Assembly: GCA_963281255.1 (NCBI GenBank)
Contig: OY725504.1
Coordinates: 1,054,001-1,118,000, forward strand
From: Aphrocallistes beatrix
Lineage: Eukaryota > Porifera > Hexactinellida > Sceptrulophora > Aphrocallistidae
DNA: 64,000 nucleotides
Direction of reading: 5' to 3'
Below are positions 14,940 through 54,362 of the stretch, in pieces (position 1 is the stretch's first letter; every line of letters starts with the position of its first letter). Below the pieces are notes generated by a model. The model worked only from the letters and a program-made list of their open reading frames with translations. It made no database searches and was not told the DNA's origin. The translations under genes were made by a program, and so were the position numbers.

Positions 14940-15708
14940 GCATGTGGGCATATTACATGAATTAAAAAGTGCTATGCGCATGCGCATATTGATGTTTTCA
15001 CGGAGGTGTGAATGTGAAAAAAATGTGTGAAAATGTGTGAAAAAAAATGTCACAAAAATTACCAACAGAGTATTGTTCACAAGATGGTATTACGATTCAA
15101 TAACTTAGAGTATTTATTGAATAATTGAAAACGAATGGTAATTTAAATTATATATTAACAAAATTAATTGTTCAAAATACACAGAACCAACCTGCATCTG
15201 AAATAACACATATAGGGATATCATATGTATTAACTTTATCGTTATCTAGACAGCAATCAGAGAAATGCATATCATCAAGATGAATACTAGTAGAAATTAC
15301 TTCATCTTCGAAAAGTTTTCTCTTTTTTGCCTTATAAGACACTCCTACATGCGATAATTCACTGTCTTCAGCCATTACAAATCAATAAGTTTTAAGATTA
15401 AATGTATTCACGGGGTTTTATTAGATATTCAATTGATCTTTACTTCTAAATACTATACAAATGTCTTATTTATTTACTACTAAAGTAGATACTAACAACT
15501 GTATTATGTTAAAGGAATTCAACATGGGATTTATTAATTTACTATATACAAATCACATTTAAACCGCAAAACAAGTAACATTACTAATCGATTTTATGTC
15601 ATATTCATAATCCCATATGCGCATGCGCACAAGCCTTATGCGGCATGCGCACAAGCTTTATGCGCATGCGCATAGCACTTTTTAATACCTCGCATGTGGG
15701 CATATTAC
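14940..15708. mobile_element. Small element with 26-bp terminal inverted repeats and 17-bp flanking direct repeats
   Basis: The 17-mer GCATGTGGGCATATTAC occurs exactly at 14940-14956 and at 15692-15708, flanking the element like a target-site duplication. Just inside, 14961-14986 is the perfect reverse complement of 15661-15686 (ATTAAAAAGTGCTATGCGCA and onward). The right end holds further copies of the palindromic ATGCGCATGCGCA core. The interior is about 735 bp and contains only a 67-codon open frame. A 17-bp duplication is longer than usual for TIR transposons, so the superfamily is undetermined. Confidence 0.75.
15172..15375 (-). CDS. Short open frame inside the inverted-repeat element
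   Basis: 67 codons starting at a true ATG (15375), beginning MAEDSELSHVGVSYKAKKRK, with a basic KAKKRK cluster. It could be the first exon of a transposon gene: after about 53 codons there is GCAG followed by GTTGGT, a weak donor. I recognise no domain and found no downstream exon, so this may be a random frame in a non-autonomous element. Confidence 0.25.
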   Translation of the reverse strand: MAEDSELSHVGVSYKAKKRKLFEDEVISTSIHLDDMHFSDCCLDNDKVNTYDIPICVISDAGWFCVF

Positions 15709-21367: not shown

Positions 21368-22735
21368 AATACGGCTACAAATAAAACGGCTACAAATAAA
21401 AATGGCTACAGATAAAACGGCCACAAATAAAATGGCTACAATAAAACGGCTACAAACCTAAGGCGTGAATAAAATGTAATCATGGAGGTAATGGGTTCTT
21501 TTAGGTGTGGAAACAGGATGTGTGAAGGACGTAATGGTATCTGATGGAAGGAACGGAGCCCGAAACCGAGTGTGAAGGATCCTTTTGAGGTGGGAATGAA
21601 AGTATTCGCTCCGCTGTCATGGCATTTTAGGCGTATGACAATGTAATCATGGAACAATTTGTACTAGCATGTCTAATATTGTCTCTTCATTGATATAATA
21701 CTACGAACTTTTCGAAATCTTTGGGCCATTTTGGAGTTCTAGGGGGGGCTCATCCCTAAAATTTGCATTGCGTCTATGGACCATCTTCGAATCCAGGGGG
21801 GCTCGAGCACCCCCGGGTTCGGCGCCTATTCTAGTATGTATTAAAATATCGACAAAAAGGCTAGAAATGCTTTATGCTCAGTTGCTTCGAGCTTGAAAGG
21901 AGATAATTGTGAAATTTACGAAAAATCATACGCGTAGCAAGGATGCCGTATCGAATTAGTAAATATATTTATAACCAGGCTTACGAGGGTCACTCAATAT
22001 GCTTTGAGCCTGGAGTAGTTGCTTCCGCTTGATTTTGTTGAAAACTTCTAGGATTATTCACCTACCTATTATTATATTTGGCTTTGAGTTTGATTTCAAT
22101 CGGACAAGTTTCTAAAATATTGTGATGAAGAAATTGTCTGATATATTTTGTATTAGCATCTATGAAAACACAACCACAAGTGTTGAATTGGGATATCTTT
22201 GAACATTTATTTATGTTTTGCAAGCGAAATTTAAATATGATAATCATAGAATCCCCCCGGATTGTGAATATATCGCATCATTGATAATATTGAATTATCA
22301 AAAGTTTGTTCCCAACTATCATTTTTCCATAAAGAGAATAAATAAAATTCCATAGGAAATGGCTTGCAAATGTGTCGGAGTCCACAACGACACTCCATTA
22401 TATGTGGCATAATATTTTAGAAACTTGTCCGATCTAACTCAAAGCCAAAGTACAAGTAATAATAGGTAGATGAATAATCCTAGGAATCTTCAACACAATC
22501 AAATGGAAGCAACTACTCCAGGCTCAAAACTTATCGAGTGACCCTCGTATAATATAAGGCTGGTATATGAGAAAAGTTAAGAGAGTATTTGTTATATATT
22601 TTCACTGTTGCCGTTTTTGATTCGTAGCCGTTTTTGGTTTGTTGCCGTTTTTAGTTTGTAGCCGTTCTTAGTTTGTTGACGTTTTTAGTTTGTAGCCGTT
22701 TTTAGTTTGTTGACGTTTGTCGTAGCCGTTTTCCC
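21368..22735. mobile_element. Element bounded by inverted tandem arrays of an AAACGGCTACAAAT-like unit
   Basis: The left end (21368-21460) has about six copies of a ~14-bp unit such as AAACGGCTACAAAT. The right end (about 22607-22735) has about eight copies in reverse orientation (GTAGCCGTTTTTAGTTT). Next to the left array, 21483-21640 is a core similar to 54118-54255 in another element whose end arrays have a different sequence. A mariner-like MITE (21984-22547) sits inside. No coding frame was recognised. Confidence 0.6.
21984..22547. mobile_element. Non-autonomous mariner-like element with long inverted repeats
   Basis: Flanked by TA at both ends (21982-21983 and 22548-22549). It starts CGAGGGTCACTC and ends GAGT GACCCTCG, the inverse. 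The inverted similarity continues for about 140 bp on each side (about 21984-22130 versus 22405-22547). The CGAGGGTCA-type terminus and TA duplication are typical of mariner elements. The interior has no transposase frame, so it depends on enzyme supplied elsewhere. Confidence 0.75.
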
Positions 22736-40140: not shown

Positions 40141-40500
40141 TTGGTGATATTTTTTTAATATTTTTTTAATTTGTTTACTTTATGTATCTAATGCAAACAA
40201 AGTAAACAAATAATTTATCATATCGATCTGAAAATATGATATTCGAAATCTACACAACTGAAAACCCCATGTCAACCGTTGAAAGCTAGTTTCTAGCCTA
40301 TTTTTGTAATTTGTTTACTTTATGTATCTATTGTAAACAAAGTAAACAAATAATTTACCATATCGATCTGAAAATATGATATTCGAAATCTACACCCCTG
40401 AAAACCCCATGTCGACCGTTGAAAGTTAGTTTCTAGCCTATTTATGAAATTTGTTTACTTTATGTATCTATTGTAAACAAAGTAAACAAATAATTTATCA
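40141..40500. repeat. Tandem array of a 140-bp satellite unit (forward arm)
   Basis: TTGTTTACTTTATGTATCTA recurs at 40171, 40311 and 40451, giving a 140-bp period with high identity. Each unit opens with an imperfect palindrome, TTTGTTTACTTT ... AAAGTAAACAAA. The same unit occurs in opposite orientation at 41446-42040. Confidence 0.9.
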
Positions 40501-41270
40501 CAAGCGCGCTTCGCTTGCTTGCGCTGCGCGGCTTGCAGACACTGCGTGTCCGCAGATTTACCCAGTGGGCGCTTGGGGATATTAGAGAAGCAATACGTCG
40601 CTTTCTTGTTTTATATTAAGTACGCTGGATGTCATTTGTCTACCGTTACATTAATGAAATCAGAACTGTAGCAGAAATTTTGTTTCTTGATAAATATAAT
40701 TTACTTCGTATTAAGTCAACTAATCCTGAATGTAAGCTCAATTTGAATACACAAAGTTCACATTGCTAAAGATTATTCTAATTAAATAATCAATTCCAGT
40801 CCATGCCGTTATAAGTTATTTTATGATCGAATTGATTGATCGTAGCATATAACACACTTTAATTGTTGTTAACAATCAAATTATAGACTCAAAATAGCAG
40901 TATTCAATAATTTATATGAAATAGAATCGTGTGAATGGCATTATAAAAGGCTGATAATTGATTGGTTCTCACATAAACCAATGGATTTAAATAATAAATA
41001 GTCCTTTGGATTGTATGCATAAGTCACTACTATTTTATTCCAATGTATTTGCATTATAAAATAATCGAATTTGATTCGTCAGCACATTTTGTCACCTATC
41101 TCGGTGAGGTGTGAACATTTCGCTTAGATCTTCGAACTTAATCCTAGATTCATCATTTGACATCTACATGCCAATTTTCGTATCTCTACGACTTGGCAAT
41201 TCTTCAATCAATTCGGACAAACAAAAAAACAAAAAAAATCCTAGAGTTTTAATATATAAGATATTGATAG
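40501..41270. other. Unique interior between the inverted 140-bp arrays
   Basis: About 770 bp. It opens with a GC-rich inverted motif (AGCGCGCTTCGCTTGCTTGCGCTGCGCGG). No recognisable gene. Together with the flanking arrays it may form one composite element. Confidence 0.4.
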
Positions 41271-41444
41271 CAACACGTGTTGCAACATGTGTCGCAACAC
41301 GTGTTGCAACATGTGTCGCAACATGTGTCGCAACATGTGTTGCAACATGTGTTGCAACATGTGTCGCAACATGTGTCGCAACATGTGTTGCAACATGTGT
41401 CGCAACACGTGTTACAACACGTGTTTCAACACGTGTTGCTATCA
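41271..41444. repeat. 12-bp minisatellite with CACGTGT/CATGTGT cores
   Basis: About 14 copies of a 12-bp unit alternating between ACGTGTTGCAAC and ATGTGTCGCAAC. The unit length is a multiple of three and lacks stops, so frames on both strands stay open (Cys-Val-Ala-Thr repeats). I regard these as artefacts, not genes. Confidence 0.9.
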
Positions 41445-41445
41445 A

Positions 41446-42040
41446 TATGATAAATTATTTGTTTACTTTGTTTACAATAGATACATAAAGTAAACAAATT
41501 TCATAAATAGGCTAGAAACTAACTTTCAACGGTCGACATGGGGTTTTCAGGGGTGTAGATTTCGAATATCATATTTTCAGATCGATATGGTAAATTATTT
41601 GTTTACTTTGTTTACAATAGATACATAAAGTAAACAAATTACAAAAATAGGTTAGAAACTAGCTTTCAACGGTTGACATGGGGTTTTCAGGGGTGTAGAT
41701 TTCGAATATCATATTTTCAGATCGATATGGTAAATTATTTGTTTACTTTGTTTACAATAGATACATAAAGTAAACAAATTACAATAATTGGCTAGAAACT
41801 AGCTTTCAACGGTTGACATGGGGTTTTCAGGGGTGTAGATTTCGAATTTCATATTTTCAGATCGATATGGTAAATTATTTGTTTACTTTGTTTACAATAG
41901 ATACATAAAGTAAACAAATTACAATAATTGGCTAGAAACTAGCTTTCAACGGTTGACATGGGGTTTTCAGGGGTGTAGATCTCGAATATCTTATTTTCGG
42001 ATCCATATGATAAATTATTCGTAGACCTTTGTTTACAATA
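41446..42040. repeat. Tandem array of the 140-bp satellite unit (reverse arm)
   Basis: GTTTACTTTGTTTACAATAG recurs at 41461, 41601, 41741 and 41881, with a decayed fifth unit near 42020. Units are nearly identical to each other and inverted relative to the array at 40141-40500. The right edge abuts the pogo-type MITE at 42047. Confidence 0.9.
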
Positions 42041-42046
42041 TATATA

Positions 42047-42513: not shown

Positions 42514-45500
42514 TCACGTTAGAGTTAGGAAATCGATGCTTAATTCAGTGTTAATAGACATCAACCTTTGTCCTGAATGGTCCATAGCGATTTTCCTCTC
42601 AAATTGAATGATTTGTTTCTTTCGAATCTTATCAGGCCACTCTCGCATTTTAGGTCGAGCTTCTCCATTATATTCTAGAACTGAATCCGGAGTACAGAAA
42701 TAATACTGACCTTTATTGTCTAAAGTGAAGGTGAATGGCTGTAGGAATGTATGGGTACATTGAAACGTAGAAAGAAAAGTTCCGTTTTTGGAAAGGATGG
42801 TGATGGTAGGCATTGACCTCTGATTGGAGAGAATATGAAGATTGTTTTCGTGCAAAAGGATATCCATTGTAGTTCCTTCTTCTTCCTTCACAATTTCGAA
42901 AAGTTGAGGTTTCATTTCATGAATTAGAGCTAAGACATACTGATCTCTACATACAAATATGCATATAACAAAAAGTACGGAGAGCATGCTCCTTAGGTAC
43001 GGAGAGCATGCTCCTTAGGTACGGAGAGCATGCTCCTTAGGTACGGAGAGCATGCTCCTTAGGTACGGAGAGCATGCTCCTTAAGTACGGAGAGCATGCT
43101 CCTTAGAAGTACAAAGAACAACTTCTTAAAAGTACGGAGCGCATAATAAATTATTATTAATTAACTTCATAGAAGTGCTGTGAGCGCACTTAGAAAGTAG
43201 GAAATGCGAGCTATGCAATCAAATAACTACGTATTTAATTTCAAGGAGTACTATTTCAATGAAGTTTGTTTAGATATCATTCTTATATTTTATCAGGAAA
43301 TTAAGATTAATAAAAAAAATATCGGCGCTTCTAGGGATGTCTGGATTAATTATGCTTACATATCCGCGCAATAAGGTACATTTTTGTTAGGAGTTTCGTA
43401 GCTAGCCTAGTTGTGTTTCCGCAAGTGTGAACAAACCCACCCAAGTAGATTAGTATGTTATTCAATTTAAATAGGCCTTTAGTACTATTAGTTTATAATG
43501 CATCTCTTAATTAATAATTAAAATAGCTATTCTTGTCAGTTAACTTACATAAATTATCTATGTATACGAGTGTGTTTACAAACTTTCTTAATTCTCAAAT
43601 AAACTTTTCAATACTTGACATGCCCAACATACTTGTATGTAAATACAGCTATGCCGCGAGTGACGAAATCTAACGCGCGTCAACACTTGCAGAATGCTCT
43701 GGAATTGTTCTCCAAAGTCACAGGAGAGGCTATAGGGGCAACTTTCACTTGGAACGGGCAAGTGAATGTCTTCGGAGCAGAACCTTTTAAGGAGTTTGCA
43801 TCGAAGCACAAAGAGGTGTGGCAGGCCTTGATATCTTCAGTTCACCGATCGGGGCGAGTAAACGAACCCTTGACCAAACCTGATCAGGATAGAAATGATC
43901 TAAGGTTACTTTCAGAAGGGAATTTTTCTACTCTAAGTGTTCCTATTCTTCGCAAACTGGTGGTTCTAGTCACGCAGCGATCTATCGGCAAGTTTTAAAT
44001 ATTTTCTGAAATGTATTTTTAGCCTAACGAAGGGCTCGTAATAGCCATTACGTAATTATTTCAGAGCCTTAACAGATATTATTTTTTGTTTCAGGTCGGA
44101 AACGATTTTTCTGGGGGAATTCGACTCTCAAACCGAACTGGTGGCCAAATAAATACCCTTTTAGTAATGTCAGAAATTCCAAGGCTAATGTTTTAGTGGC
44201 AATACTTAACGCGTATAAGGGTATTGAGCCAGTTTCAAGTGAAATTCGAGACAGATCTCCGCACTCAAGTCCCAAAAGAGAAAGTCAACTAGTTGTTGAT
44301 GATGTAGTCTCATCTGATTCTGATGGTGATAAAATTGTCTTACCTGACCCTGTTAGCCTGGAGTTTTTTGCAGAATCTTGCTCGTTAAGTGAAGATAGTT
44401 GCCTATCTATACAACCACCTCGACAACCCACTCATTTCTTTCCCTTAATAGCTGATACCCCTGTGAAGAATACTCAAAGTATGTGATAATTCTTTTACTA
44501 AAACTAATCGAATTCATTTGATTATAATTATATTGTTTATTGAAATAGCTATGTCAATAGCCACGGAAAGAGTTCAGCAACCCGATTGCACTTTTCACTC
44601 TTCAGAGCGAGAAATTGGTACGGCACAAGATGTTCTTTCAAACAGAAGTATATCTGATGGGGACATGAAGGTTGCTTTACACGAGCTAAGCCACGAGAAT
44701 ACACTTTTGACAGATGTGACAATGAACGTTTTCAGTGTAAGAATTTAAATTATAAATCGTACTCCAAATAATTTATTCAATAGTTTGGGCATATGCATAC
44801 TATAACATAACATAAATAATAAATTAGACATGAACTTAATTAAGACAAATATTGATATTATAGGTGCTGTTACTCAATCAATTTCTGCACGTTCGTGGTT
44901 TGCAAGATACGATTCTAAGTCAAGTAAGTTATTGACATTTCAATGACGGAATATTTAGAAGCGTACTATAATTGTAAACTTAACATTGTGCTTTTCAGAA
45001 ACGTCAATTTATCCCCGCCGAAACACAGAGCATCCAAATCCATCACGATGGCTCATTACACTGGATTGTATCGAGGAGCGAGTCAGATCAGGTGTTCCTA
45101 TACGATTCATTATACCGTGGCTATTTGAATATAGAAATTAAGGCCCAACTTGCATCGCTCTACCGAAGAGAACTAAGAGATGAACTTGATGTAATAATCG
45201 AGCCGATCCAGCAGCAGCAGGGCGGTGCTGATTGCGGCTTATTCGCCGCTGCTGTATGCCTTACGGTGGCACTAGGTGGCAATCCAACGAGTGTGAAATG
45301 GCGTCAAAACCGAATGAGGCAGCATCTCAAAAAGTGTCTAGAAGCGAAACATCTGACTGCCTTTCCAAGTGTTGCAGTGAAGAGATCTGATAAAAGGAGG
45401 ACGCAAATCACGATTCCCTTAATTTGTGTCTGTCGGTTACCAGAGTACGCCTTCAACTACCTCGCAAAGTGTACTAATTGTCAGAAGTTGTACCATAAAT

Positions 45501-48500
45501 CCTGCATGGGATTTCCAGATGTTCAAGGAGAAGTACCAAACTTTATATGTTTTAAATGTAGGACAATTAAGTAATTGTAATAATACTCAACTGGTATCTC
45601 ACAAGATAGTATGACAGAATTATAATTAACATACTACTAGTATATCATTGCTGCATCTGGTTAATTATCGCTAAAAAGTAACGGGTAGTGTAGAAAACGT
45701 TCTCTAGTCTCATATAGGCTATCTGTGTAGAAATTCTTCGAATAATCGAGAAGAGCTGCTCGCAAATTTGGGAATTAATTCGATTTAACTTGTTTTCTGA
45801 GATGTGTTTCATAGAATAGAAAGGTGTACATTTGTGGTTTCTTGAATGAAATCGATCAACCAGAAAAGCCGTCTGTTGAAACGCTTTGGGATCTCTGAAA
45901 GAAAGATTATATTGCTAAATGCTATTTCTTACTATGACAACGATGGTTGGAAAGCAGTGATTTTAATATTTATATTATATGGTTATACTATTACGTACCT
46001 GATCATACATGTCTTTTGTAGATTACACGCATTATCGTAGATGATAATGCGGGGTGGAACATCGAATTGAGTGAGCAGAAGGTTTAGAATACCCACAGTA
46101 GATTCTTTTTGCCTTAAAATTTGGAATCCATAACAGATTTGATGTTGGCAAGTCATCATGATCATTCCTGGTGATAAAGTTTGATGGCTTGGAAAATTCT
46201 TTCTACAAAAATATTCTTTATTTACTTCATTATCATCTTGTTCATAGATTGGTAACCTAAATATTATAACTGAATTAATACAGGCATTCGTACAACTGTT
46301 TGGGTTAGATACTAATTATAGGACACTTACTTGTAATTCGTTTTAAATGCTGGAAAATAAAACGAAAAATAATCCGAAACTACTGATTCAAAAGGTATTA
46401 ATCTTCTTGATTCCATAGAATATAAAATCTCTAGTCTTTCCATTATCCAAACTAGAAGTGGACATATGATTGAGTTTAATGCTAATGATACATTTCCTTC
46501 GGCGTCAGTTTTCTTTTTCGGGTCTAAAGACAGCAACAATCTCTCCAAAGTATACATTTTACGAAAAATAGGAACAAGCATATTTTCTTGGACAAATTTG
46601 CCCTTGGATAACTTGACAATTACTACAAGTTCGCTCTGCTCTAAGATTGAAAATTGGAAAACTCCAGATATTGGTTCATTCCTAGAGAAATATTGAATTA
46701 CTTCTCCGGCACGATCATTACAACTAGTAACAACATCGTTTTCCTGAATACTACAAGATTGTATGTAGTCAGCAAGAGCTTTTGGGTCAATTGACTGAAG
46801 TAACCGTTTAAAGGCACAAGTAGGGAGTCCATTTTGCAAATATTGTGATATTTCCCTTCGTACTGCTTTAGAAAGAATGAATATGCGAGTTGACTGAGGA
46901 ACAGAAGGTATATGTTGATTTTCGTCGAATTTTAATGTTGGGGGCGGGAGTTTCTTAACCGTTCCTAGAGTAATTCCATCAAATATGACTACATCCGGAC
47001 GACTTTTGCATATTGAGCATGTAAAACTTTCTGTGTAATTTATATTCACTAAGCGGAGGTATGTATTCCATGCGTGGTGAAATATGTGATAGCGTATTTT
47101 CTCCGGCCTCCCCAGCCTGACCAGTTTCCGATTCTTTGCTCTAATTAAATTAAGATTGATAAATTAAGGTTAAAATGATATTTTTCATATTTTTTTGTCA
47201 ATGGCTCTGAACCTTTCTCGGTCGGCGTACCCCTTTGCCATAGAGTAAAGTGCACACATCCATCTTAGTAAATAGAAATAAATACCTTAAAAGGAAACTA
47301 TCCCAAGAAACTCGTGGTGAATCAGGTACTTAATGAGGGTATTACTCCTACCCCTTGATCAGAATTACTGGCTTAAATTCTTAACTTCAGGATTATTTTC
47401 CGCATATTTAACACTTTTATTAAATGTAAGCACATGTATCCGTAGGAAAATAAAAATTTAACAACTTACCTAACAAATCCTTGAAGAGTATTCCGAGACA
47501 TAGTCATTAGTTCGCTGTATTCATATAGTAATGAATAATGGACGAAATAGTGGTTGTCTATGTTAAGAAGCAAATCAGATGATCCATCATAGACGGCGAA
47601 ACATCTACATTTACCAGTGCAAGTCCCATTGAATACTAAATATATGAAGAATTAAAACATAATATACTGCAAGTTTATTATAAATCAATTAGTAACAGTA
47701 CCTTGATGGCCTGCTAATGAAATTACATCACTATCAGTGTATATAATGATTCCTTTCGCTGAACGTGCTGGCTTTAGATCACGAAATGGATAACCATTGA
47801 CACAGTTCATTTTTTCAGGCTTAATATCATAAGGTAATTGAAGCCCATACTTCAGCTGATTATCATAGACACTGGAAAGATTATCATCAAGGCGTATTGG
47901 AATTGGGGTACGAGAAATTGATTCATATTTATGTTCACTATAGTCTCCACAATTAGGTATAGAAAGCGGTAACATTTCTAGAAATGACGATTTAAGGTTA
48001 CAGGGCTTTATGCATGTTCTGCAAAACCAATTGCCTTCCTATCGGAAATAATTAAGATTATGTATAATAATATATCTTATATATTAAAACGCAATGGTTT
48101 TTTGTTTTTTTATGTTTTTTTGTTTGTGCAGAATTGATTGAGGAACTGGGAGGTGCTAGAAATGTGAAATTTGGCACACAGATAAATAATAATGAGTCTA
48201 TGATTAAGTTTGAAGATCTAAGCGAAATTTTCACATCTCTGCAAAAATAATGGAAGACAATTTTTCATACCTTTTCTATACAATATATATGGCTTCACTT
48301 TCACTATAGATATCATTGTGCGACACCTCAATAGACTATTGTTATTAATACTTCAAAGAAATGACGTATGTGGATATCTTAATTTCCCTGCTATGCAAGT
48401 GCGCGAAGCGTGCTTTGTAAAAAATTAAACCAACCGTAAATTTATGTTATAATTATTAATAACTTCTAGTTACCTTGCAATTGAAAAGGTGAAAAGTAGA

Positions 48501-51312
48501 AGCGTCGGCTAATATTGCAGAATTTTCAGTCAAAAAGTGAATATCAAATCCTGCATGGTTTTTCGCATCAACCTCTTGAAATAAATGATCATCAATTGCT
48601 AGCTGGGCGGCTTTAGCATGTAGACACTGCTTATCTCTGCATGCTGTACATAGTAATGAATCGATTATTACAATTGTAGACGGACAGAGGGTTCGTTTCT
48701 CTAAATGAATGAAAACAAAATTGATTCTACTTGATCGTAAATAAATAAAAATATTTTCAAAGAAAATAAATACCTTCATCGTCTACATAATCACACATAG
48801 CTATTATCCGTGTATTTGTCAATTTCCATAATTTTCCATTATGGAGAAGAGAATGTATATATCGATCAACAGGTGAGAGATTTAGAATATGCAGAGCCAT
48901 TCCATGATCTGCATTGGCCTGAGGTCCATCACAGTCGTATGGAAGCTCGTCTATTAAATAATTTAACTTAGTACTATCTGCCCTGTTTCTAACTTAGTTT
49001 CTGCTATACAGATGCTGAAAATGTTTTTAATATGCATATTACTAATACAACTTACGGATAGTTGATGGATAGTCTGATTTACTTATTGAAAAGTCTTCTA
49101 TTTGGAGTTGAGAGAGAGATAGTTCTTCTGTACGCCTCCTTTTACTTGAGACAGGTGCAAGTTCAGTCAGATGTACTTTATCAGCTCCTCGATTATTCGA
49201 CATTACAAATAAGTATTATACTTATAAAATAAAACAGTTTGCGACAGTTATTCACTTCATCTATTTATGTGGTTGGTGGTTGTGATACTTGTGAACTTCT
49301 AAAACCAAGACATATTTTATGTGGTTTCTAAACAAGTGCTGTTTGGAAACCACATAATATATATCTTGGTCATAGTAGTTTATAACAGCTTCACAACCAC
49401 TATAGCGGTAAGGTATTGATTATAGGGCATGCAAATTATTTACCACATCTTAAAAATTCCATTATACCAGAAATGCAGTTATCGTTACATAAAGTGAAAA
49501 CGATTTTAAAATATTATATTGACTAGTACTACAATATATAATTCTAAGGAGCATGCTCTCCGTACTTCTAAGGAGCATGCTCTCTGTACTTCTAAGGAGC
49601 ATGCTCTCCGTACCTAAGGAGCATGCTCTCCGTACCTAAGGAGCATGCTCTCCGTACCTAAAGAGCATGCTCTCCGTACCTAAAGAGCATGCTCTCCGTA
49701 CTTTTTGTTACCTCAAATATGCCATCATCGTCTACAACAAGCCGAGTAGATCTGATATGATCTGTCTTGTCATCAGAAATAATTTCCTTCTCACTGATTC
49801 CGAATACACTAACAAGTTCCGCATTGAAAGTAAACACAAATACAATTCTCAATTTTCTGTTTGGGAGGAATATCAGATTGTTGTTAATCGCCACTCCATG
49901 AATCTCGTAACATATCTCTGTCTGTGGTTCAAAATACGGTTTGAGAACTTCAAGTAAGCTTGATATATTTCTTTCAAAGTACAATTCCCCTTCAGGACTA
50001 TAGACAAATAATCTGTCATAAGTAGCTATACTTAGTCCGCTAGTAAGAGTCCCAATGATTCGACCTGTCTCAGAATCAGCAGCTATTGAGGTGGTACCAC
50101 GAGGTACTCTACCGCCCATCTAAATTCAATTTAAATTCTCAAGATAAAAATTGCTGAAATAAGAAAACATCTACTTGTATAATTATTTTCTTGTGTCTAG
50201 AACAGGGATCGTGGTGTAAAAATTACACCACGAATTTTGGGAGTTACACCACGATTTGGGTCGGCCGCTGCAGCGTGGGCAATATTTGGTTAATATTTTT
50301 TCGGTGGTTACACCGTGATTAAGCTGAGTTACACCAAGGTCTCAACCTTAAAAAAAATCCTGGTCTATAATCCATAGATTTACATTGGTTCTAGGTATTA
50401 GATACAACAGAGCAAAAATTGGTCATACCCAATTTCTGGGATGGGGCAGGAGCGTCCTGGAAAATCTAGATACCTAATTTCCGGGACGGGACGGATAAAA
50501 TAACTAATTTCCGTCCTGTCTATGAAATTAGTCATACCAGTAAAAATTGGCGGGGGAAAGTAATAAAACCGTCTCAAACTGAAATTGGGCATCTTGATCC
50601 GCCCGTCCTTGAATTTAATCATCTTGACGGTGTCGAGTGACATCGTCCTCTCCCACCCCTACCCCACCGGGTAAACTTCCCCCGACTGAGGATCCTAGTG
50701 TCAGATTCCCCCGAACCTCTCGTCTAGGTTCAGGAGTTCCCCATGGGTGGGGACAAGTCAGGGAGACGCCTGGCATAACGACAGCGGGTTTAGCCTGTTG
50801 CAACTGTTGACTCCGCAGGTAAATATTTGTTCCCTCTCCCCATCCATTAAAATTGGTCTGGGTGAAACAAAATTGATTCACAAACCATTTTTGGTACCAT
50901 ATATTTCACTCAAACAAAGCATGTGACGTTATGACGTTATAATCACTCTAGGTCTCTATAATATGCTTTATAGTTTGGTGGTATGCCAGACAAAGCAACT
51001 GATTGTCTCCTCATGGAACAATCTTAGATATCTAAGGAATCTAGGAAAAGTTATGAATTGGGTGGAGTCTCAATTTATCTCTTGGTGCTACTACGACGAG
51101 TTTGAGATTCATGAGAGCTATGCCATAGGATTCGGAAAAATAGCATTTTCTTGAAATTGTACTATCGTGTGGAGGAGTGTTCCATTAGAAGAGAACACTT
51201 TGATGCAGTAACCCAAAGCATCGCTGATAATCAAATTCTTCTCATTATCCAGACAAAAGAAGAAGGCTCTTTTAAGAAGAGAATTTAGTAAGTAATCATA
51301 GTGCTTTCCCAC
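42514..51312 (-). CDS. NHL-repeat protein gene split by a 6.7-kb transposon in an intron (partial)
   Basis: Three coding pieces on the minus strand. 51312-51118 encodes FFFCLDNEKNLIISDALGYC and IKVFSSNGTLLHTI, an NHL blade. 50119-49712 encodes GTTSIAADSETGRIIGT up to LVVDDDGIFE. 42939-42514 encodes YVLALIHEMKPQLFEIVKEE to the stop. Exons two and three join in phase 0 using GAG/GTAACA (49712/49711) and ATCAG/TATGTC (42940/42939). Without the transposon this intron would be only about 29 nt. The link from the first piece to the second is unclear because the frame stops at 51118 with no obvious donor, and no start codon is visible, so the gene may be decaying. It is related to the NHL gene at 37045-38322. 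Confidence 0.5.
42968..43140. repeat. Left terminal array of the KDZ transposon
   Basis: Six 22-bp units with centres at about 42979, 43001, 43023, 43045, 43067 and 43089, then a degraded unit. Each contains GAGCATGCTC, a perfect 10-bp palindrome. Likely binding sites for the transposase. Confidence 0.9.
43651..45574 (+). CDS. Ulp1-like cysteine protease with PHD finger (transposon accessory gene, five exons)
   Basis: Exons 43651-43987, 44095-44478, 44549-44736, 44864-44923 and 44999-45574 total 1545 nt (514 residues), with matching phases at every junction. Intron 1 is GC-AG (G/GCAAGT); the others are GT-AG. The N-terminal part has a Trp-rich segment, FFWGNSTLKPNWWPNKYPFS. Residues about 324-430 resemble C48/Ulp1 peptidases: H344 in GSLHWIV, D359 in FLYDSLY, Q near 396 and C402 in QQQQGGADCGLFA, a complete catalytic set. 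Residues 466-510 form a C4HC3 PHD finger (C466, C468, C481, C484, H489, C492, C507, C510). Inferred role: removing SUMO- or ubiquitin-like marks, or processing the transposase. It converges on the transposase gene, with the stops 70 bp apart. Confidence 0.85.
45645..49203 (-). CDS. KDZ-type transposase (eight exons, apparently intact)
   Basis: Exons 49203-49056, 48950-48774, 48700-48474, 48038-47702, 47635-47470, 47140-46331, 46256-45999 and 45894-45645 total 2373 nt (790 residues), all GT-AG with consistent phases. Start MSNNRGADK, with a basic SSKRRR patch. Cys clusters at CTACRDKQCLH (C126-H136), CRTCIKPC and CTGKCRCF resemble the CxC/SWIM-like zinc-binding parts of KDZ transposases. The catalytic half has SRPDVVIFDGITLG (D406), TCQHQICYGFQIL, PPRIIIYDNACNL (D696), FLVDRFHSRNHKC and NSQICEQLFSII (E753), giving a D-D-E set typical of Kyakuja-Dileera-Zisupton enzymes. 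The family is known; the DDE residue choice is by motif only. No internal stops or frameshifts. Confidence 0.87.
48050..48440. repeat. Repeat-like insert in transposase intron 3
   Basis: The intron between exons 3 and 4 is about 435 nt, larger than its neighbours. It begins with T-rich runs, then GAAATTTGGCACACAGAT, and ends near CAAGTGCGCGAAGCGTGC. Similar GC-rich GCGAAGCG patches occur at 27909 and 40501. It may be a nested non-autonomous element (Helitron-like ends are one possibility). Confidence 0.3.
49545..49708. repeat. Right terminal array of the KDZ transposon
   Basis: Seven inverted units (GGAGCATGCTCTCCGTACC, 22-26 bp spacing) ending CCGTACTTTTTGT. Units nearest the end are the most regular; inner ones carry an extra TTCTA. 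Same palindromic GAGCATGCTC core as the left array. Confidence 0.9.
50203..50362. mobile_element. hAT-like MITE with supporting empty site
   Basis: 160 bp from CAGGGATCGTGG to AAAAAATCCTG, flanked by GTCTAGAA and GTCTATAA (8-bp duplication, one difference). It contains repeated, inverted TTACACCACGA motifs. The paralogous segment at 36650-36685 lacks the insert (CCTAGAATCCCTAGATTTAC), an empty site that confirms the ends. Confidence 0.8.
50398..50880. repeat. Dispersed GC-rich repeat block
   Basis: CTAGATACCTAATTTCCGGGACGGGAC and its inverse are shared with 62880-63030 (GGTACCTAGATTTTCCGGG). A C-rich block (50640-50800) with CCGGGTAAACTTCCCCCGAC follows. Probably mobile-element debris in an intron of the NHL gene. 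Confidence 0.45.
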
Positions 51313-54011: not shown

Positions 54012-54362
54012 CATGGGTTAACGGAAATTTCGTCGCATGGAAAATTCGTCGCCGGAAAATTCGTCGTAGGAAGATTCGTCGCGGAAACCTAAGTTGTATG
54101 TACAATGTGTAAGAAGTGGGTGCTTTTAGGTGTGGAAATATGATGAGGGGGCCGAAGTTGCATTTGAAAGGAGGAATGAAGCTCGAAACCAGGTGTCAAG
54201 GAGGCTTTTGAGGTGGAGAATTAAAGTAGTCACGTGATATCATGGCAATGGAAATACAGGGGATACTGGTTATATTCTTATTTATGCATTAGATACGATA
54301 GCGACGAATCTTCCTTGCGACGAATCTTCCGGCGACGAATTTTTCTCCATTCGTTAACATGA
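54012..54362. mobile_element. Element with inverted AATTCGTCGC arrays and a core shared with 21368-22735
   Basis: Left end CATGGGTTAACGGAAATTTCG then about four copies of GAAAATTCGTCGC. Right end GCGACGAATCTTCC, GCGACGAATTTTTC, then CATTCGTTAACATG, the inverse. The middle (54118-54255) contains CTTTTAGGTGTGGAAA, GCTCGAAACC and CTTTTGAGGTGG in the same order as 21490-21610. The cores match but the end arrays are unrelated. Confidence 0.7.

Follow-up and report, generated by a model that had tools for sequence, protein, structure and literature searches.

The window analysed here, a stretch of 64,000 nucleotides from the sponge Aphrocallistes beatrix (C18:1054001-1118000), harbours a KDZ-type transposon with two convergent genes, one encoding a predicted DDE transposase and the other a predicted accessory protein with NRF1-type, Ulp1/C48-like and PHD parts. 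We consider it probable that this accessory protein binds the end arrays of its own element as a dimer, that protein and arrays form a matched pair in each subfamily, and that the binding may aid transposition or counter silencing. The protein domains, the ends, the target-site duplication and the recurrence of this anatomy across subfamilies are directly visible in the DNA.

Borders, insertion site and near-identical copies

The element (Table 1) extends a few bases beyond the borders that an earlier, sequence-only reading had given (42968..49708). A target duplication of 7 bp, together with the same termini, is found in four of the five end pairs of the window subfamily (the window element and those on contigs C6, C13 and C20), while the C7 end pair lacks a duplication; the unpaired ends L009-L012, L019, L024 and L026 were left out of this count. 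In the related L054 copy, the duplication reads ambiguously as 7 or 8 bp. Window-family ends on C1 and C3 (L009, L010, L012, L024) pair unusually, as though these copies had become partly inverted or nested. The terminal motif TAACAAAAAGTACGGAGAGCATGC, with up to three mismatches, occurs twice in the window versus 0.00 expected, and the searched genome (100.5 Mb, 28 contigs) has 24 occurrences of the motif versus 0 for the reversed control.

Excision of the element together with one duplication restores an open host frame, so the insertion broke a frame that has since stayed undecayed. Pfam gives no match for this frame (E up to 0.1), and a by-eye impression that it is NHL-like was therefore dropped. 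The copies on C6 and C20 share 99.69% identity (across 6717 bp) and 99.72% identity (across 6667 bp) with the window element in the longest alignments. Together, the restored 281-codon frame and the ~99.7% identity of two copies indicate that the insertion is recent, as the earlier reading had proposed. In an exon-by-exon comparison that covered these two copies, all eight transposase exons align gap-free to the window element in both. In the accessory gene, the reading frame is broken by a gap of one base in exon 2 of the C6 copy and by a gap of two bases in exon 4 of the C20 copy, and exon 1 has a three-base gap in both.

Table 1. Coordinates of the features in the window (position 1 is its first letter)
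Feature	Position	Strand	Remarks
Whole KDZ-type transposon	42962..49714	.	6753 bp; termini CATATAACAAAAAG...CTTTTTGTTACCTC
Left target-site duplication	42955..42961	.	AAATATG
Right target-site duplication	49715..49721	.	AAATATG
Interrupted host reading frame	42514..50119	-	281 codons, start at 50119, no stop, with element and one duplication removed
Left end array	42975..43106	+	6.0 x 22 bp, unit GTACGGAGAGCATGCTCCTTAG, palindrome GAGCATGCTC; Tandem Repeats Finder
Right end array	49544..49701	-	7.0 x 22 bp, unit GTACGGAGAGCATGCTCCTTAG inverted; Tandem Repeats Finder
Accessory exon 1	43651..43987	+	Part of NRF1 dimerisation domain; helix with R101, equivalent of R206; GC donor at end
Accessory exon 2	44095..44478	+	Remainder of NRF1 DNA-binding domain; N137, R139 equivalent to NRF1 N242, R244
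Accessory exon 3	44549..44736	+	
Accessory exon 4	44864..44923	+	
Accessory exon 5	44999..45574	+	Ulp1/C48-like catalytic part (H344, D359, Q396, C402) and PHD finger
Transposase exon 1	49056..49203	-	
Transposase exon 2	48774..48950	-	
Transposase exon 3	48474..48700	-	
Transposase exon 4	47702..48038	-	Start of CxC4-like region (residues 261-361)
Transposase exon 5	47470..47635	-	
Transposase exon 6	46331..47140	-	D406
Transposase exon 7	45999..46256	-	D696
Transposase exon 8	45645..45894	-	E753
Second, short element	14956..15691	.	Arrays with exact NRF1 sites GCGCATGCGC

The transposase gene and the KDZ assignment

Both gene models of the earlier reading, of eight and five exons, were reproduced exactly, giving a transposase of 790 aa, with GT-AG at seven of seven introns, and an accessory protein of 514 aa. 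For the transposase, simple splice scoring gave a 35-bp intron, which was replaced by a 74-bp intron that yields the 790-aa model. The predicted DDE catalytic residues D406, D696 and E753, which are assigned by motif and had been named before, lie in open exons of the reproduced model. The spliced protein matches the KDZ transposase domain PF18758 at residues 652-770 with 30.8 bits (cut-off 26.6), and the KDZ identity proposed in the earlier reading, for which a profile search of the 790-residue protein had been suggested, thus passes the Pfam cut-off. The KDZ-associated CxC4 Cys cluster scores 26.0 bits, with a cut-off of 26.9.

Counting against our explanation, an exon-by-exon profile search of the genome gave no KDZ match that reaches the Pfam cut-off. 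KDZ transposase matches lie close to NRF1-type domains: 28 of the 42 NRF1-type loci (counted outside the host NRF1 gene, with neighbouring matches merged) have a KDZ transposase match at most 10 kb away, where ~1.2% would be expected, and two of the 14 loci that have none nearby (on C13 and C7) are short window-family copies with both ends. Conversely, an NRF1-type domain lies at most 10 kb from six of nine KDZ profile matches that were found independently of NRF1, none of the nine being above the Pfam cut-off. We regard the element as a KDZ transposon and do not assign it to Zisupton, Kyakuja or Dileera.

The accessory gene

Intron 1 of the accessory gene (43988-44094) is of the GC-AG type, and the other three of its four introns are GT-AG. 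The donor position of intron 1 reads GT in all 15 of the diverged copies whose exon 1 end was located and GC in both near-identical copies examined, so the boundary between exon 1 and intron 1 is real. A different exon 1/2 junction, suggested by simple splice scoring, was ruled out by the other copies and by the NRF1 alignment, both of which fit the GC-AG intron. For exon 3, the acceptor at 44549 is favoured because some of the extra residues align in other copies, such as L062.

The accessory motif residues H344, D359, Q396 and C402 are found where the earlier reading had placed them. In the single accessory protein, Peptidase C48 (Ulp1) scores 14.8 bits (Pfam cut-off 20.7) and PHD 22.3 bits (cut-off 24.0), both below threshold. 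A profile built from five copies supports the two domains that had been proposed, with an Ulp1-like SUMO protease match at E=8.4e-5 and a match to the PHD of PHF2 at E=9.7e-11. Among the predicted catalytic positions, H, Q and C are invariant, and D is kept in four of the five copies. The Ulp1-like and PHD parts are also present in diverged copies, across which exons 1 and 2, the NRF1-type exons, are retained as well. Exon 5 found no relatives outside the genome when searched in viral contigs, and its alignment found none in bacterial and archaeal genome contigs.

An NRF1-type module at the N terminus

The N-terminal part of the accessory protein is an NRF1 dimerisation and DNA-binding module. 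PF10491 scores 29.9 bits in the whole protein (cut-off 23.5) and 32.7 bits for exons 1 and 2 alone, and it is matched at E up to 1 by all nine subfamily proteins (best 5.7e-11). In phmmer, the window module finds the NRF1 crystal sequences 8k4l (2.2e-5) and 8k3d (1.1e-4); a profile of the nine subfamily proteins finds them at E=3.6e-11 and 2.4e-9, respectively, with the next match at 0.55. The homology covers PF10491 positions 67-176 of 213 and 8k4l residues 91-194 of 232, taking in both domains in part. NRF1 reads its bases through R206, N242 and R244, its half-sites are TGCGC and its consensus site is GCGCATGCGC (PMC10810270, text accessible in part). These three residues align with R101, N137 and R139 of the window protein, and R101, the R206 equivalent, is invariant in all nine subfamily proteins.

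The genome also has a host NRF1 gene (C1:8494049; PF10491 167.7 bits), which is a single 485-codon frame. This gene (C1:8494049-8494699, L055) is far diverged from the transposon modules (branch 4.46 in the tree), and at the residues that read N-V-R in human NRF1 it has N-I-K, a triplet that the transposon copies L081 and L085 share.

Our search of the open-access literature, at the level of titles and abstract openings, found no transposon with an NRF1 module matched to palindromes at its ends. Among the matches listed for PF10491 or the Nrf1 DNA-binding domain, titles and abstract openings revealed none on transposons carrying it. Open-access searches linking Zisupton with Ulp1, or Zisupton with nuclear respiratory factor, likewise found nothing.

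End arrays and their palindromes

The regular terminal arrays described in the earlier reading were recovered by Tandem Repeats Finder (Table 1), and the start codons of the two genes lie 545 and 341 bp downstream of them. We examined 34 NRF1-type loci, made up of 23 from the first genome search (host gene excluded), L054, and eight plus two from later searches. A perfect CATG-centred palindrome of at least 10 bp lies near the domain in 25 of them, 5' of the domain except in L073, where it is 3'. The commonest types are GAGCATGCTC (seven loci), GATCATGATC (six) and the exact NRF1 site GCGCATGCGC (six: L067, L069, L070, L074, L081 and L085); rarer ones are AAGCATGCTT and TCGCATGCGA (two loci each), CCGCATGCGG (one) and ACACATGTGT/C (one, L065, read in L087). 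The palindrome adjoins a visible transposon terminus in the window family, L054, L065 (L087), L066, L067, L068, L070, L073, L074, L081, L082 and L085, and hence in all loci with the exact NRF1 site except L069; the termini of L068 and L082 are degenerate, and no terminus was seen for L069, L086 and the other GATCATGATC loci. When representative units were shuffled, an equally long palindrome arose in 9 to 574 of 20,000 trials (eight CATG units).

Several loci depart from this arrangement and count against our explanation. Seven of the 25 have a single perfect palindrome only (L067, L068, L069, L077, L082, L085, and L061, which is at the edge of its stretch), and asymmetric units make up three of six in L087 and number one or two in L071, L074, L076 and L082. 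No CATG array was found in the examined stretch at eight of the 34 loci (L072, L078, L079, L080, L083, L084, L093, L094), among which L084 has a degenerate array and L079 a repeated AGTACGTACT instead. The L064 subfamily has a 22-bp end array of another unit, without a CATG palindrome. In L064 (C2:2029616) and L092:386-484 the array unit is GCGACTGTCGATTAAGAGTTAA and the NRF1-type exons are open, which may reflect a change of site geometry.

The exact NRF1 site GCGCATGCGC occurs three times in the window versus 0.01 expected, and all three lie within the second, short element. The ends of this element resemble those of the main one; by eye, its left end equals that of L067 across the first 59 bases, and a minus-strand remnant in it resembles transposase exon 1. 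The direct repeat on either side of it, GCATGTGGGCATATTA, has 16 bp and thus exceeds the 7 bp of the main family. Other arrays were also seen in the window. Inverted arrays ACGGCTACAAATAAA / TGTAGCCGTTTTTAGTT at 21371-21456 and 22606-22732, ~1.2 kb apart, perhaps mark another array-ended element, and short inverted arrays GGAAAATTCGTCGCA / GCGACGAATCTTCCG lie at 54022-54087 and 54301-54340. Two blocks of a 140-bp tandem repeat (40159-40497 and 41441-42044), in opposite orientation by eye, have a 12-bp array, GCAACATGTGTT, between them (41270-41439).

Half-site types and base-reading residues

The palindromes comprise seven half-site types: TGCTC, TGATC, TGCTT, TGCGC, TGCGA, TGCGG and TGTGT/C. 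All begin with TG, the pair that R206 reads in NRF1, and the outer three bases vary by subfamily, mostly alike on both arms. A kept TG together with changes that mostly affect both arms is the outcome expected from selection by a symmetric dimer. Together with the NRF1-type module, these patterns in the sequences strongly suggest that the arrays are bound by a dimer of the accessory protein. Because the subfamilies share ancestry, their palindromes do not count as independent cases.

At the position equivalent to N242, subfamilies whose half-site has C at position 5 (TGCGC, TGCTC, TGATC) have N, those with T there (TGCTT) have D, and those with A or G (TGCGA, TGCGG) have C; TGTGT/C and L064, which also retain N, are exceptions. 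L084 (AKKSK at the 242 region) was left out of this comparison because its array is degenerate. A strict rule by which the residue at the N242 position sets the base at half-site position 5 fails on the two exceptions, and the residue-to-base pattern, as read from these alignments, is suggestive only and falls short of a clean code.

Proposed mechanism and alternatives

In the mechanism that we favour, a dimer of the accessory protein would bind the CATG-centred palindromes of the 22-bp arrays at both ends, each subfamily keeping its own matched palindrome and DNA-binding domain. The bound protein may mark and pair the ends for the transposase, or strip SUMO from silencing factors so that the transposon genes stay on, or both. 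If recruited to the element, a SUMO protease could act against silencing that depends on SUMO. The arrays are at the very ends and also upstream of both start codons, and so end recognition and transcription control are both possible; which effect follows from the binding, end recognition or anti-silencing, is at most hinted at by this layout.

Terminal repeats are the usual sites of transposases, and the transposase itself, for example through its Cys cluster, which is CxC4-like and near the cut-off, might read the palindrome arrays while the NRF1-type protein acts elsewhere, such as at host promoters. We find this unlikely, as several copies with an encoded NRF1 module have the exact NRF1 consensus at their ends and the NRF1-type exons are conserved in diverged copies. 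Less likely still, the ends might hijack host NRF1, with the accessory protein competing or incidental. The host gene is present and some copies do have the exact NRF1 site, but the window family (TGCTC), TGATC and TGCTT deviate from the bases that NRF1 reads. Furthermore, the C4 to A change implied by the TGCTC half-site weakens human NRF1 binding ~4-fold, and binding is weaker still with both arms changed (PMC10810270, in its accessible text). The frame-breaking differences in the accessory gene of the C6 and C20 copies could point to a decayed relic that owes its open reading frames to chance, but 13 open exons with matching junctions, the restored host frame of 281 codons, ~99.7% identity with two copies and the 7-bp duplications make such a relic highly improbable.

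A variant compatible with our favoured mechanism makes the accessory protein mainly an anti-silencing factor, analogous to VANC and dispensable for cutting and joining. VANC targets are often tandem repeats that vary among related transposons (PMC5735166, from the part accessible); the arrays described here likewise differ between subfamilies and are located upstream of the two genes, and SUMO-protease-like and PHD domains would suit chromatin work. Against this variant, the arrays are terminal, as end-recognition sites would be, and we hold it to be a genuine possibility that stops short of being probable. Matched binding of the arrays by the element's own accessory protein, with either or both effects, is the reading that we retain.

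Implications

If this is true, related transposons each possess a matched lock and key of their own. With at least seven half-site types beside differing NRF1-type domains, this one genome offers a set for work on a recognition code, and natural variants of NRF1 DNA specificity would be valuable. The set also suits the study of how a transposon gains a new end specificity while its partner protein is retained, and it may supply an animal counterpart to the plant anti-silencing systems.

The link between an animal transcription factor and transposons makes the origin of NRF1 testable. NRF1 may conceivably descend from an end-binding accessory protein of KDZ transposons, with both the module and its GCGCATGCGC site domesticated, a proposal that we put forward as a long shot; the reverse, in which a transposon captured host NRF1 and the specificity then diversified, agrees with the data just as well. 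In a tree of 12 transposon modules and host NRF1, seven of the ten inner branches are open and host NRF1 sits on a very long branch, so the tree, being largely open, is silent on the direction between NRF1 and the transposons.

Comparison with known systems

KDZ (Kyakuja-Dileera-Zisupton) transposons and accessory genes are already known (PMC12730594, PMC12477816, PMC9297572; each accessible in part). The window element resembles them in its KDZ transposase domain above the cut-off and its many exons, it may also share the CxC4-type Cys cluster, which scores near the cut-off, and it resembles fungal KDZ elements in having a further gene next to the transposase. In the fungal families, as far as the accessible text of PMC12730594 describes them, this further gene is TET/JBP, whereas here it encodes the NRF1-Ulp1-PHD protein. 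Zisupton is described, in the portions accessible, with an 8-bp target duplication, unlike the 7 bp found here, and the Cryptococcus KDZ elements with duplications of 8 and 4-8 bp (PMC12810828). Kyakuja, as represented by two fungal families in the accessible part of PMC12730594, has a 7-bp duplication as here, but its termini are CA..TG without inverted repeats, whereas the termini here are CA..TC with inverted array ends.

With NRF1, EWG and P3A2 the accessory protein shares the dimerisation and DNA-binding module, including the equivalents of R206, N242 and R244, and the loci have CATG-centred palindromes, exactly GCGCATGCGC in six of 34. It differs in being transposon-encoded and fused to Ulp1-like and PHD parts, and the palindrome is altered in most half-site types.

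A transposon-encoded Ulp1 protease domain, here a predicted Ulp1-like one, is also found in Ginger1 and Mutator, and Ginger1-9_HM has it together with PHD (PMC2836005, accessible in part). In Ginger1, as far as that source goes, the transposase, which belongs to a different kind, itself carries Ulp1 and PHD, and the accessible text mentions no NRF1 module (PMC2836005). The earlier reading had taken the Ulp1-PHD pairing and the 22-bp array ends as signs of a possibly distinct subgroup; the pairing in a transposon protein is not new, being known from Ginger1, but the group is indeed set apart, by the NRF1 module and the NRF1-like palindromes of its arrays, neither of which figured in that account.

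In En/Spm, a plant CACTA element, subterminal repeat arrays are bound by TnpA, a non-transposase protein that binds short repeated motifs at both ends, as the accessory protein here would; we know of no relation between TnpA and the accessory protein. The nearest working parallel, by analogy, is provided by the VANC proteins, to our knowledge likewise unrelated to the accessory protein. As in VANDAL/VANC of Arabidopsis, a second, sequence-specific protein would act on tandem repeats within its own element, targets that differ among related elements (PMC5735166, in the text accessible). The predicted target repeats here differ in being terminal and palindromic, and an anti-silencing role here is putative.
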